A stretch of DNA of 64,000 nucleotides from Gloeobacter kilaueensis JS1 (GTDB taxonomy: Bacteria; Cyanobacteriota; Cyanobacteriia; Gloeobacterales; Gloeobacteraceae), in NCBI RefSeq assembly GCF_000484535.1, contig NC_022600.1:4580234-4644233 (forward strand), given 5' to 3'. Positions 1,226 through 51,926 of the stretch are shown here, piece after piece; positions within the stretch are counted from its first letter, which is position 1, and every line of letters starts with the position of its first letter. The position numbers and the translations under genes were made by a program. Under the pieces are notes generated by a model. That model was not told where the DNA came from and ran no database searches. It was given only the letters and a program-made list of their open reading frames with translations.

Positions 1226-1879
1226 TTACAACGAGCTTTTAGGAGCCGTTTCCTCGTCCCCTAGATGAAGTCGAAATTCCTTTGCGGCTGAAAGTGGGTT
1301 TGGGTTGCGAACGCAAGCTGACAGCAGACGCATATCCAGGCCAGGCAGAAGTTCACTGCCCTCGATCGCTTCGTAGCCGGAAGTTTGAATCCATCGAACC
1401 GGCGACTCCTCGCGCAGATGATAAATTGAAAACTGGCTATTTTGCCAGGACCAGACTTCCTGGACCCCTAACCGTCGATAGAGTTCCAGATGATTGATGC
1501 TACCGCTAGTTACGACTACTTCGATTGCTAGATCTGGACAATCTTTATCCGAGCCGATGCAGTAGCTTTCATCCGGTTCTATGCCTGCTTGTTGTTCTTC
1601 GTTGCGAAGCGTAGTGGAGCCTGCAGGAAAATATTCGGTGTTCGTTTCGAGAAAGTAGACTTCCAGCAACGTACCGATCCGGGTCTTTGCGCTCTCGTGC
1701 CGACGACTGGGGGACACAATCTCCAACACTCCATCTAAGTAAGCGACCCGATAGTGAGCTGTTTCTCCTAGATCGCAAAGCAACACTTCGTATTGTGCCC
1801 AACGAACGTTGCTGATCGTCCGCCGTTCTTCAGGATCGTCGATTTGTAGGCGCTGGATTAAATCACCGGAGAGTACCAT
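1226..1879 (-). CDS. Uma2 family (DUF820) putative restriction-like endonuclease
   Basis: The 217-residue protein has the Uma2/DUF820 layout of the PD-(D/E)XK superfamily: YLDGVLEIVSPSRRHE near residues 48-63, a central ESYCIGSDKDCPDLAIEVV stretch that supplies acidic active-site residues, and RLGVQEVWSW after it. Uma2 proteins are very abundant in cyanobacteria and lack a firmly established role. This copy is closely similar along its whole length to the Uma2 protein at 48929-49555, including the C-terminal NPNPLSAAKEFR-type tail. The gene is clearly more AT-rich than its surroundings, in keeping with lateral or copy-based spread (inference). Confidence 0.88.
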   Translation of the reverse strand: MVLSGDLIQRLQIDDPEERRTISNVRWAQYEVLLCDLGETAHYRVAYLDGVLEIVSPSRRHESAKTRIGTLLEVYFLETNTEYFPAGSTTLRNEEQQAGIEPDESYCIGSDKDCPDLAIEVVVTSGSINHLELYRRLGVQEVWSWQNSQFSIYHLREESPVRWIQTSGYEAIEGSELLPGLDMRLLSACVRNPNPLSAAKEFRLHLGDEETAPKSSL

Positions 1880-13337: not shown

Positions 13338-14600
13338 TCAGCCTGTCGGATCGGCGATCCGGCCCATGAACAACAGTGCTCCTGAAGTGTTGTCGCGGAT
13401 GGCGATGAAGAAGGGCCGATCGACGATCATCTGGAAAGGCGGAACTGGCTGCATCACAGCTGTTGCCCGCATAATCGCCCCCGTGGCTGCCGCCGCCTCG
13501 GTGCCCTCCTCATTGACATCGATGTAGCTCTTGTGGATGACCTCATAAAGAAAGGCCGGCTCACGGCTCATCGCCCGAAAGTCCGCCTTTGAACTGAAGG
13601 CAATGCCCATACCGAGGATTGTCAGCGCCTTTTTGAGGGCGATGGCGTACTCAATCTTGAAGCGGGGCAGGGCCAGACTGCCGGATCGGCTGGCAAACTG
13701 CGTCAGCCATTTTTGGAAAGTCTGGCCATTCAGTTGTTGCTCAAAGGTGGCCAGATCTGGCTTCGGCAAGAAGATGTACATGCCCAGATTGGGATTGGCG
13801 TAGGGCAGGCGCACCGCCTGAAAAGCCTCGTTCTCCAGGTACTCGAAGCGGCCTGTCTGGTTCATGAAGGGCAGATCCTTTTGTGGTCCGGCTGCCAAAT
13901 GAAAAGGACGGTTGCGCGTTGCCTTCGAGTCGAATGTCCGCTGCCAGGCCGCTTTGAAGTAGACGGCGTTGACGAGGACCAGCAGCGCGCTTCTGAGATC
14001 GTCGGGGGCAACGATTTTGGCGATCTTACCGTTGGTCTTTTGCTCGACCCAGCGGTTAATGGTCTGGGCCGCCTCCGGCTGGGCAAAGTTCAACTCCTCC
14101 GCCTGTGCCCGGTAGTACTGGCGCGCCAGGTTCGTAAACTCTGCTTCGATGGCAACTCCTTGTTGCGACCAGAGGGCGTTGGCAATTTGCAACTGCACTT
14201 TGGCCTCGTGGCTTTCGAGGGCGCTCAGCAGGGCGGCACTTTGCTGGTTGAGGGCTGGGCTATCGAGCTTACCCAGGGCGAGAGTCTGGGCGATGGCGGT
14301 GCGGGTCGCCCCGGCAGCTCCGTTTTCGACCATTGTCAGCACCAGGGCGATGCTCAAAGGCGAGAGGAAGACGTTGCGCCCGGCATCCTGCTTGATTGCC
14401 TGGGCAAACAGGTTGAATCCAAATTCAGTTTGGGCCTGGGCGAGGGTCGTGTTCATCGTCGTCTCCTGGGCAAGACTGCGCCGGTGGGGTCCGAGTAGGG
14501 CCAGTAGAAGGCCGGCGCGCAAAACGGTCGAGCGGCGCAGGCGGAGGTTGGCAGATCCTGGAGCTGCAAGCAGAAAGTCGTTTTCAGGCGGGGTTTTCAT
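13338..14600 (-). CDS. Serpin (serine protease inhibitor), exported
   Basis: A 420-residue serpin-fold protein with NVFLSPLSIALVLTMVENGA, the NAVYFKAAWQ strand motif and the C-terminal DRPFFIAIRDN... FMGRIADP signature. The hinge NEEGTEAAAATGA is of the small-residue inhibitory type. Counting from P15 Gly places P1-P1' at Thr-Ala in MRATAVM, which would suit elastase- or subtilisin-like enzymes (inference). A leader with LRLRRSTVL before GLLLALLG may be a Tat-like or Sec signal, ending near RSLAQE. ATG 14600 follows GGGAGAA at a good distance. Serpins are uncommon in cyanobacteria. Confidence 0.92.
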   Translation of the reverse strand: MKTPPENDFLLAAPGSANLRLRRSTVLRAGLLLALLGPHRRSLAQETTMNTTLAQAQTEFGFNLFAQAIKQDAGRNVFLSPLSIALVLTMVENGAAGATRTAIAQTLALGKLDSPALNQQSAALLSALESHEAKVQLQIANALWSQQGVAIEAEFTNLARQYYRAQAEELNFAQPEAAQTINRWVEQKTNGKIAKIVAPDDLRSALLVLVNAVYFKAAWQRTFDSKATRNRPFHLAAGPQKDLPFMNQTGRFEYLENEAFQAVRLPYANPNLGMYIFLPKPDLATFEQQLNGQTFQKWLTQFASRSGSLALPRFKIEYAIALKKALTILGMGIAFSSKADFRAMSREPAFLYEVIHKSYIDVNEEGTEAAAATGAIMRATAVMQPVPPFQMIVDRPFFIAIRDNTSGALLFMGRIADPTG

Positions 14601-14695
14601 TGTCGGTTCTCCCAGCATGGAGCACGTCCTTTAGGCATCGTCCGGCTCGATCTCAAGTGCGCGAAAGCGACAATCTGCCTGCGCAACCGCGCAAG

Positions 14696-15097
14696 CTAGT
14701 ACAGCGCCTTGCAGCTTCCCTGGGCGCGCAGTCTGTCGATCGCCTTGCTGTAGTCGGTGCGGCTCGGGTAGCCCCGCTCGACTTTACCGGCGGCGTCGAT
14801 GATCAAGTAGGGGGTGGTGAGCTTCTCGCAATTTTTTGCCAGATCGAGGTCCACCCGCACCGTCACCTCGTCGATGCCGCCGGTCTTGCGCTCCTGGAGG
14901 GCGTATTTTTTGACCGCAGCGACAATCTGCTCGTCGCTCGCCCGCGCCGGAACGCTGGCGTAGACCAGTTGCCTGGAAGCACTCGTCGTGCTCACGCTGC
15001 GCGCGCGCAGGACGGTAATCGGCACCTCAGCCGCCCAGGCCATCGTCGTCCACAGCGCGCCGACGATGGCAGCAAACACGATTTTGTCAAAGTTCAA
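14696..15097 (-). CDS. Small exported protein of unknown function
   Basis: A 133-residue protein with a signal peptide (IVFAAIVGALWTTMAWAAE) cleaved near residue 23. The mature part has helical segments and two cysteines (about 89 and 129) that could pair. The TTG start at 15097 is supported by AGGAGG five bases upstream. I do not recognise a family. It lies between the serpin gene and the divergent DUF427 gene. Confidence 0.65.
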   Translation of the reverse strand: MNFDKIVFAAIVGALWTTMAWAAEVPITVLRARSVSTTSASRQLVYASVPARASDEQIVAAVKKYALQERKTGGIDEVTVRVDLDLAKNCEKLTTPYLIIDAAGKVERGYPSRTDYSKAIDRLRAQGSCKALY

Positions 15098-15219
15098 AGG
15101 CTCCTCCTGATGGGCCTGCGGGTCGATTGTACTGCTGCGTGCCGTCCAAAATCGGCAGTCTTGATCGCTCGATCTTTTCTAGACTGGATCTGGAGAGGTT
15201 TTCTACAAGAAGGGGCACC

Positions 15220-15504
15220 ATGCCGAAAGCAACCTGGAACGGAGTTGTCCTCGCCGAGGGTGACAAGTACGAAGTGGTCGAAGGAAACATCTACTTCCCG
15301 CCCGAAGCGCTCAACAAGGAGTACTTTCAGCAGAGCAACACCCACACCACCTGTCCCTGGAAGGGCGTGGCGAGCTACTACGATGTCGTCGTCAACGGCA
15401 AAGTCAACAAGGACGCCGCCTGGTACTACCCGGCTCCAAAGGACGCCGCCAAGAACATCACTGGATACGTCGCCTTCTGGAAGGGCACAAAGGTCGAATC
15501 GTAG
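15220..15504 (+). CDS. DUF427 domain protein
   Basis: The 94-residue protein is one DUF427 domain: KATWNGVVLAE at the start, then VVEGNIYFPPEAL, the conserved THTTCPWKG block and YYDVVVNG, with AWYYPAPKDAAKNI near the end. This small all-beta family has no established reaction. ATG 15220 follows AAGGGGC; an upstream in-frame start at 15127 would only add unrelated sequence. The stop codon TAG directly abuts the ATG of the M41-like gene, so the two are very likely co-transcribed. Confidence 0.9.
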   Translation: MPKATWNGVVLAEGDKYEVVEGNIYFPPEALNKEYFQQSNTHTTCPWKGVASYYDVVVNGKVNKDAAWYYPAPKDAAKNITGYVAFWKGTKVES

Positions 15505-16161
15505 ATGGCTCATCGCAGCGGCACATTTGCGATCGGCGCTTTGCTACTCACGCTGCTGGCGGGGGTCGGCCCGGCCCTGGGGCTTTCTCCCGCCATCGCT
15601 GCTTTCGCCGTCGTGATGGGCCTCGGGTTTTTCTTTTTCGATCGCATCTTTTTTCAGGGACGGCTGCTGACGCTGGTTGCCGGATTGGTTCAAGAACGCC
15701 AGAAAGGGTGGCGCGAACGGGTGGCCTGCCACGAAGCGGGCCATCTGCTAGTCGCCCACCGGCTCGGTATCGCCGTCGAGGACTACACGCTCGGAGCCTG
15801 GCAGACTTTCCAGCGGGGCTATCCCGGCAGCGGTGGAGTGGTACTCGCTGTACCTGCCCGGCTTGACAGCGATCGAATCGAAGCTTACTGCGCTACCTGG
15901 CTTGCAGGCGGGATGGCTGAGCAGATGGACTACGGCAAATCTATCGGGGCCGAAGAAGATCTCCAAAAAATTCAGCTATTGCTCGCGGCAGCCCAGCGCA
16001 GCGGTATCGCCCCGGCCCGCACCCTGCGCAATCGGGCCGAACGGCTTGCCCGTTCGCTGCTGGTAGCTGAAAAAGACCTGCACAAAAAGCTCACCCAGCA
16101 ACTTCTAGCCGGGCGCGACATCGAGGGGTGCATCCAACTGCTGCAAGCTCAGCAGGCGTAA
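15505..16161 (+). CDS. Lone membrane-anchored M41 (FtsH-type) peptidase domain without AAA ATPase
   Basis: A 218-residue protein: two hydrophobic segments (about 9-30 and 31-50), then RVACHEAGHLLVAHRLG, the HExGH zinc motif of M41 peptidases near residues 75-79, and MAEQMDYGKSIGAEEDLQK, which places a third acidic ligand as in FtsH. The AAA+ module that normally precedes the M41 domain is missing. Similar ATPase-free FtsH-like proteins (FtsHi-like in idea) occur in cyanobacteria. Activity without an ATPase partner is uncertain. It starts immediately after the DUF427 stop. Confidence 0.8.
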   Translation: MAHRSGTFAIGALLLTLLAGVGPALGLSPAIAAFAVVMGLGFFFFDRIFFQGRLLTLVAGLVQERQKGWRERVACHEAGHLLVAHRLGIAVEDYTLGAWQTFQRGYPGSGGVVLAVPARLDSDRIEAYCATWLAGGMAEQMDYGKSIGAEEDLQKIQLLLAAAQRSGIAPARTLRNRAERLARSLLVAEKDLHKKLTQQLLAGRDIEGCIQLLQAQQA

Positions 16162-16167
16162 TGACGA

Positions 16168-16653
16168 TTACTGCAGTCCTCTTGCCAGGTGCTCGAAGTA
16201 CTTGCTCGCCTCACCGGCGGCTTCGGGACCGACCACACCGGCGACCACCTCGCGCAGGGCGTTGATGCCCTTGACGGTGGCGTCGATCGGCACGCCGAGG
16301 GAGGTGTAGGTCTCCTTGAGGCCGCTCAGCACGTACTCGTCGAGCAGGCTGGTGTCACCGGCGACCATCGCAAAGGTGGCGTAGCGCAGGAAGTATTCCA
16401 TGTCGCGGATGCAGGCGGCGAAGCGGCGGGCGTAGTACATATTGCCGCCGGTACGGGTGAGGCTGCTGTAGAGCAAAGCTTTGGCCGCTGCTTCTTTGAT
16501 GATCGACTGGGCGTTGGCGCTGATCGCGGCGGCGGAGCGCACCCGCAGTTCTCCGGTGGCAAAGTAGGCTTTGAGTTGATCGATTGCGCCGGTGTCGAGA
16601 TATTTGCCCTGGGCGTCGTACTTGGCGATGACTGCACTGATGGCGTCTTTCAT
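16168..16653 (-). CDS. apcB: Allophycocyanin beta subunit
   Basis: A 161-residue phycobiliprotein beta chain of normal length. Cys81 ([17 protein letters not shown]) is the phycocyanobilin attachment site and Asn71 (GGNMY) the expected methylated Asn. [23 protein letters not shown] and [18 protein letters not shown] match ApcB better than ApcF or ApcD. Allophycocyanin forms the phycobilisome core and passes energy to photosystem II. There is no apcA beside it, so it may be a second, stand-alone copy. It differs from usual ApcB at the end ([11 protein letters not shown], without the usual Cys). It is convergent with the M41-like gene. Confidence 0.88.
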
Positions 16654-48338: not shown

Positions 48339-48881
48339 ATGGCTTTGGCCGAGCACCGCCAGATTCCTCCCCAGATCGTGAGCGACTTCGAGCGCGCCCA
48401 GCCGCAGTCGCTGGTGATGCTGATTCACCTGTTGCGGGTAGGAGCACTGCTCGACAAAGAAGTGACCGACTACGTGAGCCGCTATGGCCTGACCGGGCCG
48501 CAGGTCGCGGTGCTGCGCATTCTTCAGTACTTCTACGATCGCGGTCAGGACGGTTTGCCTCTGTCGGAGATTGGCGATTGTCTTTCGGTGACCAAGGCCA
48601 ACATGACCGGCCTCGTCGATCGGCTCGAGCGCGATGGGCTGGTAATCCGCGACAGCGATCCGCTCGATCGGCGCATCAAGCGCGTGCGGCTCACCGACAA
48701 GGCCCACGACCTGCACAACCGGATGAAGCCCGGCTTTATCCAGTACCTGACGGATCTGATGGGTGTGCTCGAACCGGCTGAAAAGGAGCAACTGCTGGTG
48801 AGCTTAGGTAAACTACGCCGGGTACTGGGCGATACGGGCCTCGGTCCCTGTGGGCCACCGACCGAACCCGTCAATCAGTGA
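48339..48881 (+). CDS. MarR family regulator of the RND operon
   Basis: A 180-residue MarR protein. The winged helix-turn-helix lies at about 50-125 (LSEIGDCLSVTKANMTGLVD followed by RLERDGLVIRDSDPLDRRI, with the wing in the last part). It is divergent from the RND operon, which it probably represses. A tiny frame ATG-GTT-AAC-TAA overlaps the start (TAATG). The Cys in GDCL and in GPCG are the only cysteines, so a redox switch is conceivable but not shown. Confidence 0.92.
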   Translation: MALAEHRQIPPQIVSDFERAQPQSLVMLIHLLRVGALLDKEVTDYVSRYGLTGPQVAVLRILQYFYDRGQDGLPLSEIGDCLSVTKANMTGLVDRLERDGLVIRDSDPLDRRIKRVRLTDKAHDLHNRMKPGFIQYLTDLMGVLEPAEKEQLLVSLGKLRRVLGDTGLGPCGPPTEPVNQ

Positions 48882-48928
48882 GTTCTCTCCCGCCTTGGAA
48901 TGAGCGCAAACAAGGGAGGTTACAAATT

Positions 48929-49555
48929 ATGGTGCTGCTGGATGACTTATCGCAACGATTGAAGCTAGATGATCCGGAGGAGCGACGCATCATTGCCGAT
49001 GTTACCTGGTCACAGTACGAGGCGTTGTTGGCAGAACTGGGCGATAGTCTGGCGTATCGGGTGAGTTATCTAGATGGGGTGCTCGAAATCGTGGCACCGA
49101 GTCGTCGGCATGAGACAGGAAAAACGCGCATCGGCGATTTGCTGCTGATTTATTTTCTGGAGACTGACACAGAGTTTTTCCCGACTGGTTCCACAACCTT
49201 TCGCAGCGCCGAACGACAGGTGGGCACTGAACCGGACGAGAGCTACTGCATCGGCATGGACAAGGAGATCCCTGATCTGGTGATTGAAGTCATCCTGACT
49301 AGCGGTGGGATTAACCGCCTGGAGCGCTTTCGCCGCCTGGGAGTACGGGAGGTGTGGTTCTGGCAAAACGATCGATTTTCCATCTACCATTTGCGCGAAG
49401 ACTCGGCTCAGTTGACGGATACTTACGGCTACGAAGCTATTGCCCAGAGTGAACTCTTGCCAGATTTGGATATAAATTTGCTCAGTCAATGTGTGCAAAA
49501 CCCGAATTCACTGGCCGCAGCAAAGGAATTTCGTCAGGGGATTCGAGAGAGGTGA
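48929..49555 (+). CDS. Uma2 family (DUF820) putative endonuclease
   Basis: A 208-residue Uma2 protein, the closest relative in this window of the copy at 1226-1879 (same DDPEERR start, YLDGVLEIV.PSRRHE, ESYCIGMDKEIPDLVIEV, QNDRFSIYHLRED and NPNSLAAAKEFR tail). GGAGGT sits at a good distance before ATG 48929; a longer start at 48878 would add 17 residues. The gene is 47 bp after marR on the same strand. Confidence 0.9.
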   Translation: MVLLDDLSQRLKLDDPEERRIIADVTWSQYEALLAELGDSLAYRVSYLDGVLEIVAPSRRHETGKTRIGDLLLIYFLETDTEFFPTGSTTFRSAERQVGTEPDESYCIGMDKEIPDLVIEVILTSGGINRLERFRRLGVREVWFWQNDRFSIYHLREDSAQLTDTYGYEAIAQSELLPDLDINLLSQCVQNPNSLAAAKEFRQGIRER

Positions 49556-49633: not shown

Positions 49634-50698
49634 TCAGTTGCTGTTGGACCAGCGAAAATCAATCGCCAGATCTCGATTCTGCCTGCTCTCGGGCAACACG
49701 CGCAGCGGAAAGATCTTTTTGACCTTGCGCATTACCAGGTTATCGAGCTTTTCGGAACCAAAACTTTTGAGTACAGTTATATTCCGCAAACTTCCATTAC
49801 CGGCGATCGTAAGCAGCAATTGCGCATCAGAATTAAAATTATCTGTATTCATCGAATAAATCAATTCCGAGCGGATGCGATTGATCACCTCGGCCTCATA
49901 GCTTCCGACACCAGTTTCTGTCGTACTGGTTTTCTCAGTGCGGCGGTTCATTATTTTGCGTACAAAAGTGATCTGCTCTCCCTTCAAGCCGATGCAGCGC
50001 TTTTCGATCTGTTTAGCCGGACAGATGTTCGAGCTTACAGTCGCACAGTAGTAGGCTTCGGGAGCCATAAGATTGCAACTTTCTCCCTCAACATGTGACA
50101 ATCCTAGAGCGTGCCCGAGTTCGTGCAGCAGAACATCGCGCAGGTCGGAGTCGGAGTCCTCCTGAGCGCGTTCCCAGAGGGGGCGCTTCCAGTTTAAAGC
50201 CAGTTGGATCTTACCGATTTTGTAGCCTTCATCTGGAGCAAATACACCGATGGCTTTTTCAGAATCCACGCGGTCTGAATCGATGCCCTCGACAACCAGA
50301 TCTGCCATTTCAGGTTTTTCTACGAGAGTAAAAACCTTGACTTTAAAGGTGTCATCGTCCATTGTTACTGCATCTACTTTACGTAGAATACCAACATAAT
50401 CCTCGTCTGCAATTGGCTGTTCTAAAAAATCGGACAACAGCCGGTTCCAATCGCTGACGCCCACTCGTAATACACGCATTATACTCTCAAAAATTTGCCT
50501 TCGATGACGGTTTTTATTCTCGTTTCCATCAAGCTCTTTTGCCAGTGGATCGATGTAGACTTTGATTGGAAAATCTGTCCGATCCAAGGCCCAAGTGGGT
50601 AGCAACCAGCCTGATTGGCAGATCAAAATGGCCAAAGCCGCAGCGAACCACCGCAAGAAAAGGGTAGGAAAATGAGCAGAATTATTAGTCTCTAGCAT
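49634..50698 (-). CDS. Metzincin-like (matrixin type) protease with TonB-C-like tail
   Basis: A 354-residue exported protein with an anchor or signal at about 14-37. The zinc motif HELGHALGLSH (His192, Glu193, His196, His202) and the Met-turn NLMAPE (Met211) mark a metzincin of matrixin/astacin type. The last ~90 residues (SYEAEVINRIRSELIYSMNT, IAGNGSLRNITVLKSFGSEK, LDNLVMRKVKK) match the TonB/TolA C-terminal fold. The gene is much more AT-rich than its neighbours. ATG 50698 overlaps the stop of the upstream TPR gene, so the two are coupled. An unusual domain pair; role unknown. Confidence 0.75.
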   Translation of the reverse strand: MLETNNSAHFPTLFLRWFAAALAILICQSGWLLPTWALDRTDFPIKVYIDPLAKELDGNENKNRHRRQIFESIMRVLRVGVSDWNRLLSDFLEQPIADEDYVGILRKVDAVTMDDDTFKVKVFTLVEKPEMADLVVEGIDSDRVDSEKAIGVFAPDEGYKIGKIQLALNWKRPLWERAQEDSDSDLRDVLLHELGHALGLSHVEGESCNLMAPEAYYCATVSSNICPAKQIEKRCIGLKGEQITFVRKIMNRRTEKTSTTETGVGSYEAEVINRIRSELIYSMNTDNFNSDAQLLLTIAGNGSLRNITVLKSFGSEKLDNLVMRKVKKIFPLRVLPESRQNRDLAIDFRWSNSN

Positions 50699-51926
50699 TG
50701 ATGTCGAAAGTGAAATTGATTGTAACTCTTCGCTTTCCTTCTTCGCGATTTGTGTATTGAACTGGTAATAGATTAAAGGGAGAGGAAGCATTTATCGCTT
50801 CGATTGCTGCAGTATCGCTATCTTTATTGCCCGAACCATCGATGATTCGTAAATTCTGCACTGTGCCAGAGGAGATTACGTCAAACTGGACGACTGTCTT
50901 CGTTGTTACTTGTATTTTTTCAGTGTTCCAATAATTCTTGATCTGCGCTTGCAACTGTTCTATGTAGGGTTGCCAATCTAGCTCACTTTCAAGATCATTT
51001 AGATAGACATACAAGTAGGGCTGATTTAAGAGATATGTTCTCAATGCAGGAGCGTACTTATATGTTATTGAGCGATAGCCCGGACTTGCGATCAGGGGTA
51101 CATTGGCAAAGATTCCAGGGTTATTAGAGTTATCTTGAAAGGCAATATCCAGTGTATTGACACTGACAAGATAGGCTGCCGGGTCAATTTTTAACAGAAC
51201 TCGTCGGTTCTCTATAAAGTCTTTTTCTGGCAGTGTGCGATTTTTATTAAAATCCTGACGGGCGCTCGTGAGTTCCCTCTGCAGCAGCCGAAATACTCCA
51301 CGGTTGTAATAAATTATTGGTTCTTTGGGTGCCAGTTGCACAGCGGCATCAAAATCCCTCTCTACTGGTTGCAGAGCATCAATGTTGGGTCTAATTTGTG
51401 GATATTGCAGTCGGAGAATGGAAAGATTGTTGAGAGCCTGCGCCTTGAGCGAATCACTGGCCTTTTGTTGAGTAATCTTTGCAAAAGTTTCCATCGTCTT
51501 TTGAATCTCTCCAACAGCCAGCAGTGCCAGAGCCTGCTCGAAGTAGACAAAAGGCTGGTTGAATTCTTGATCGATGGCGCGCTGGTAATCTTCGAGGGCA
51601 GCCCGATAATTTTTGAGTGCTGTCTGGATCTGAGCGCGGTGGTAGTAGGTCCGCCCGTCGCTGTCATCGAGGGCAAGGGCGCAAGTGTCCGCCGCCAGTG
51701 CGCCGGTGAGATCGCCCCCATCCTCCCGGTCAAGGGCCAGCCGCTGCCAGTCGATCGAAGTGGCGGCTGGCAGCGCAGCGGAACCGTTTGCTGAGGCAAC
51801 TGTCCGGGTCTTAGGGAGTACTGTCTCACTGCAGGCAGCAGGAGCCGGTTGGGCTGCCGCCGCTCGACCAGAAATTGCCCAAAAAATGGCCACGACAGCA
51901 GCGCAACCGCTTCTACAAAAGTTCAT
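50685..51926 (-). CDS. Exported TPR protein with TonB-C-like tail
   Basis: A 413-residue protein. Signal peptide (AAVVAIFWAISGRAAAAQP), TPR helices about 60-240 (TYYHRAQIQTALKNYRAALE with DYQRAIDQ, then FVYFEQALALLAVGEIQKTM), a middle region, and a TonB/TolA-like C-terminus from about 325 (YIEQLQAQIKNYWNTEKIQV, VQFDVISSGTVQNLRIIDGS). It precedes the metzincin gene, with a 14 bp overlap. GC content falls sharply within the gene near 51,550, so the 3' part seems of different origin from the 5' part. Confidence 0.7.
   Translation of the reverse strand: MNFCRSGCAAVVAIFWAISGRAAAAQPAPAACSETVLPKTRTVASANGSAALPAATSIDWQRLALDREDGGDLTGALAADTCALALDDSDGRTYYHRAQIQTALKNYRAALEDYQRAIDQEFNQPFVYFEQALALLAVGEIQKTMETFAKITQQKASDSLKAQALNNLSILRLQYPQIRPNIDALQPVERDFDAAVQLAPKEPIIYYNRGVFRLLQRELTSARQDFNKNRTLPEKDFIENRRVLLKIDPAAYLVSVNTLDIAFQDNSNNPGIFANVPLIASPGYRSITYKYAPALRTYLLNQPYLYVYLNDLESELDWQPYIEQLQAQIKNYWNTEKIQVTTKTVVQFDVISSGTVQNLRIIDGSGNKDSDTAAIEAINASSPFNLLPVQYTNREEGKRRVTINFTFDINARD

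Follow-up and report, generated by a model that had tools for sequence, protein, structure and literature searches.

A predicted exported metzincin and a TPR protein, each ending in a TonB-type domain, are encoded by overlapping genes in Gloeobacter kilaueensis

A C-terminal domain of the TonB type is usually taken for the end of an energy transducer. In TonB and TolA, the Ser/His/Leu/Ser motor motif lies in the N-terminal transmembrane helix (PMC12204202), and the C-terminal domains bind their partners by β-strand augmentation, that of TonB to the TonB box of transporters and domain III of TolA to TolB (PMC11658791, PMC7391070). TolA is also bound by the TPR protein CpoB (PMC7391070). Here we describe a two-gene unit of Gloeobacter kilaueensis JS1 in which domains of this kind (PF13103, PF03544) end both a matrixin-like protease and a TPR protein. 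It was found in a 64,000-nucleotide stretch of DNA (the window; positions 4,580,234–4,644,233 of NC_022600.1) from a genome that forms a single contig of 4,724,791 bases. A literature search found no description of a metzincin–TonB pairing, and the text of the G. kilaueensis genome paper mentions neither TonB nor peptidase (PMC3806779).

The features of the unit, in window coordinates and with Pfam matches judged against gathering cut-offs, are as follows; A-type and B-type are defined below.

50685–51926, minus strand: gene of the TPR–TonB_2 protein (TPR protein), ORF of 413 aa, first gene of the unit
51852–51926, minus strand: predicted signal peptide of the TPR protein, MNFCRSGCAAVVAIFWAISGRAAAA, about residues 1–25 (sequence and hydropathy)
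51246–51695, minus strand: TPR region, about residues 78–227 (Pfam TPR_1, 38.0 bits against a cut-off of 27.8; also TPR_11 and TPR_17)
50712–50972, minus strand: B-type TonB_2 domain of the TPR protein, residues 319–405 (Pfam TonB_2, 49.5 bits against 22; TonB_C, 28.7 against 24.6)
49634–50698, minus strand: gene of the metzincin–TonB_2 protein (protease), ORF of 354 aa from the ATG at 50698
49943–50578, minus strand: metzincin catalytic domain (aligned over the Gloeobacterales family, alignments A1 and A3)
50093–50125, minus strand: zinc-binding motif HELGHALGLSH, followed by the Met-turn CNLM (sequence; Peptidase_M10, 26.9 bits against 24)
49664–49903, minus strand: A-type TonB_2 domain of the protease, with KSFG, residues 297–376 of the 385-aa ORF (Pfam TonB_2, 28.8 bits against 22)

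Both reading frames are intact at the coordinates of a preliminary description, which had read from the letters two exported proteins with a translational overlap, a metzincin motif with a Met-turn, TPR repeats and TonB/TolA-like ends; the ORF coordinates, signal peptide predictions and HMM scores bear out these readings. The TPR gene stop and the protease ATG at 50698 overlap by 14 bp. The longest protease ORF (385 aa) starts at 50791, which would extend the overlap to 107 bp; the start at 50698 was picked from a signal peptide resembling those of relatives and from the family alignment, and it agrees with the earlier His192/Glu193 numbering. AlphaFold models of the protease (pLDDT 43) and the TPR protein (pLDDT 38) were too low in confidence for a fold search.

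With matrixins (Peptidase_M10, PF00413; metzincin clan) the protease shares HExxHxxGxxH and the Met-turn, whose Met is nearly invariant across the metzincin–TonB_2 family of Gloeobacterales. The likeness is confined to the catalytic core: the M10 profile match spans only the stretch from the catalytic helix to the Met-turn (positions 96–134 of 159), Val rather than Ser follows the third His, and the best PDB-chain match of the family profile reaches only E = 0.008. No more than about 10 residues lie between the signal peptide and the catalytic domain, whose V-x-I-x-P start is invariant in 12 of 12 rows of alignment A3. So are four cysteines, the first in CN[LV][ML] and three more after it, which are probably disulfide-bonded. 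These family-specific cysteines from the Met-turn on, together with the C-terminal TonB_2 domain, set the protease apart from matrixins.

The two TonB_2 ends belong to different types. A tree of 36 TonB_2 domains resolved two groups, A and B (support 100/99), and leave-one-out HMMs assigned 35 of 35 domains to their own group. In A-type domains, which occur on metzincins plus a two-domain predicted exported protein of this genome (L021), one site reads S/T-F-G; B-type domains, which include those of canonical TonBs, have a residue other than Phe there wherever the motif is readable. Tree and HMMs both place the end of the protease in group A and that of the TPR protein in group B, which rejects the possibility that one end was copied from the other within the unit. 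The TPR protein's domain resembles, at 45% identity, the end of the genome's canonical TonB, an RDD-TM-Pro-rich protein. Another soluble use of TonB_2 was seen in a predicted exported protein (L015:1429-3246), where an N-terminal TonB_2 domain precedes a PDZ domain.

Unlike TonB and TolA, both proteins of the unit lack a transmembrane motif for motor binding and a linker that would span the periplasm, and their TonB-type domain is attached instead to a soluble enzyme or to a TPR domain. Direct reading found no Ser/His/Leu/Ser motor motif in either N-terminal segment: in the protease, which has an N-terminal predicted signal peptide and no hydrophobic segment after it, the only His precedes the hydrophobic core, and in the TPR protein the signal peptide has no His and hence no TonB-type motor motif. 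Hydropathy of the TPR protein peaks at 1.77 at residue 6, with no later hydrophobic segment, and TPRs stand where TonB and TolA have a Pro-rich or helical linker. Because motor motif, linker and hydrophobic segments past the N-terminus are lacking, ExbBD-type energisation of either protein is unlikely, as is the earlier proposal that the TonB-like domains span the envelope; rather than force transducers, both appear to be soluble exported proteins that end in a TonB-type domain. CpoB is a periplasmic TPR protein linked to a TolA-type system (PMC7391070); in the unit, by contrast, it is the TPR protein that bears the TonB-like domain, and its gene accompanies that of a protease instead of tol-pal.

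We tentatively propose, at a little under an even chance, that the unit encodes an envelope protease docked by its TonB-type end, together with a co-translated TPR adaptor. The two genes would yield two co-translated exported proteins. One would be a matrixin-like metzincin whose C-terminal TonB/TolA-like domain, a passive docking module, binds an exposed β-strand of an envelope protein by β-strand augmentation, in the manner of TonB with TonB boxes and TolA with TolB, and so may keep the protease near its substrates. The other would be an adaptor subunit, with TPRs for binding a partner or substrate and a B-type end that may dock to the kind of target recognised by TonB itself. The analysis shows the domains, the export signals, the overlap of the genes, the distribution of the family and the two types of TonB_2, whereas location, docking mode, complex formation and proteolytic activity are what we infer for these proteins.

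The B-type end also allows a different reading, that the TonB_2 ends are unenergised competitors, the soluble TPR protein occupying TonB boxes while the protease clips or regulates TonB-dependent transporters. The resemblance to the canonical TonB fits this, as does the repertoire of Gloeobacter violaceus, with 33 TonB-dependent transporters and three TonB-like genes (PMC2771747). That count, however, is not this genome's, no transporter gene was recognisable among the genes examined near the unit, and the protease's own end is A-type rather than canonical, so that we regard such competition as quite improbable.

By sequence, the protease is a member of a small metzincin family, undescribed so far, that is spread across the order. 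Relatives of any form were found in eight of the nine Gloeobacterales genomes examined, with none in the remaining one, and proteins combining M10 and TonB_2 in five (this genome, G004, G005, G007 and G008). This genome has three M10–TonB_2 genes, namely that of the unit, L057 (whose scores fall just below the Pfam cut-offs) and L058, as well as a predicted exported protein of reversed order in which TonB_2 precedes a degenerate metzincin (QLLGRVLGLAG) that has lost its zinc ligands (L084:7302-8261, minus strand). Because of these two paralogues and the reversed-order dead copy, the TonB_2–metzincin link appears to have been made or kept more than once. Three other Gloeobacter genomes (G001, G002 and G003) have a shorter homologue, of 268 aa in G002. 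In G001 and G003 (L059:8274-9029 and L060:8439-9194) it reads HAxxH, the catalytic Glu being replaced, and has no TonB_2; L057, the relative of these homologues in this genome, retains both. Zinc ligands are also lost in one copy of G007 (L066). With several relatives catalytically dead, proteolysis may be only part of what these proteins do.

Across the phylum, a whole-family model searched against 386 genomes, a draw that lists no other Gloeobacterales, matched at full length only in this genome, and the matches listed elsewhere are TonB_2 ends. Metzincin matches of the catalytic model in this sample were partial and weak, almost all in one family; metzincins L094–L106 were considered as relatives and rejected, matching in the catalytic core only and showing no TonB-like end in their printed C-termini.

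In G004, G005, G007 and G008 the M10 domain is followed by one to five TonB_2 copies (own HMM). Such tandem arrays resemble binding repeats, and L021 is little beyond two A-type repeats, which would suit an alternative in which TonB_2 repeats bind the cell wall or each other, giving an envelope-anchored protease or a self-assembling oligomer that the TPR protein joins by TonB_2–TonB_2 pairing. We consider this unlikely, as the literature consulted supports peptide-strand binding by the C-terminal domains of TonB and TolA and assigns wall binding to ExbD (PMC11658791).

For a docked protease with an adaptor, the best evidence that the gene pair is functional comes from relatives whose single chains combine the same kinds of module: M10-A-A-B (L065) and M10-A-A-A-A-B (L068), in G007 and G008, and the fusion TPR-M10-B of G004 (L063). 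As judged from domain content, the unit's pair splits over two chains the kinds of module that these relatives carry in one. The TPRs of the G004 fusion are of the TPR_12 subtype, unlike those of the unit, so it indicates only a shared kind of combination. Beside this fusion lie two genes for large kelch-repeat proteins (L063:9376-11550 and 14104-16501), the nearer overlapping by 4 bp. The adjacent TPR–protease gene pair, for which the preliminary description had suggested a search in other genomes, was seen only in this genome; the TPR gene is no general partner of the protease.

The unit differs from its genome in composition, as had been noted, and lies between breaks in synteny. Its GC3 is 0.47 in the TPR gene and 0.50 in the protease gene, whereas 177 ORFs sampled from the same genome average 0.71 (sd 0.09). 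The drop inside the TPR gene, earlier placed near 51.55 kb, was located close to that position; the GC-richer 5′ part of the gene is still below the genome mean. Two boundaries, neither assigned to a strand, describe the region.

51518: GC3 change point inside the TPR gene, from 0.61 to 0.40 in the direction of the gene (permutation p = 0.0014)
48837: left end of collinearity with other Gloeobacter genomes, at the end of an RND–MarR block (genome comparison)

From 48837 to about 52.1 kb nothing is collinear with the three other Gloeobacter genomes, in which the genes right of the unit sit elsewhere. The preliminary description had taken the unit for transferred and partly spliced onto a local 5′ end. 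The composition is indeed anomalous and the other Gloeobacter genomes examined lack the locus, but the idea of the protease as a foreign oddity is not supported, its family recurring in the order. For the splice, the composition break stands, whereas no DNA similarity to the 5′ end of the TPR gene, as donor or recipient, was found in this genome, and there is no clean empty site because synteny breaks near both sides of the unit. No DNA copy was found elsewhere in this genome, and plasmid and phage collections gave no match to the protease. In the catalytic-domain tree the branch of the protease is long (3.24) and unplaced, and it therefore points to no donor lineage. Acquisition or rearrangement of the stretch is plausible.

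Other sequences of low GC were observed in this genome. A Uma2-family gene adjoining the unit (48878–49555) is likewise below the genome GC; it has a 75% identical relative at a different location in G001 and, near window positions 1272–1753, a second related copy. A comparable low-GC import consists of two overlapping AT-rich genes with GC3 of 0.34 and 0.40 (L084:9952-11806), apparently for an adenine methyltransferase and a restriction enzyme. Scans for promoters and terminators and a search for repeats yielded no result that exceeded chance or had an evident meaning.

An acquired or rearranged AT-rich stretch could also have brought together two unrelated exported proteins that do not cooperate. 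In favour of this, the pair occurs in no other genome examined, synteny is lost close by on either side, the two TonB_2 ends fall into different groups and TPRs are promiscuous. Yet the genes overlap in translation and share their low GC, both products have an export signal and the same kind of C-terminal domain, and a relative carries the TPR-M10-TonB_2 fusion; we therefore give chance neighbourhood a low probability.

The docked protease with its adaptor may be one version of something broader. A wider reading, which we hold to be doubtful, is that these deepest-branching cyanobacteria have an undescribed system of envelope proteolysis. In it, unenergised TonB-type domains of two types, one nearly confined to metzincins, would serve as interchangeable docking modules, on one chain or over two genes; dead paralogues would act as regulators, and a metalloprotease would be directed to TonB-dependent transporters or other TonB targets.

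What is new here is an order-level metzincin family with TonB-type domains and one two-gene version of it, the component parts being of known kinds. TonB-type domains recur on soluble predicted exported proteins, above all in this order-wide family, sometimes as tandem arrays and in either domain order. Ton systems may therefore be overcounted if TonB proteins are tallied by their C-terminal domain alone, and the TonB-type domain becomes a candidate general docking module, for which this family offers a test case of a TonB domain without a motor.
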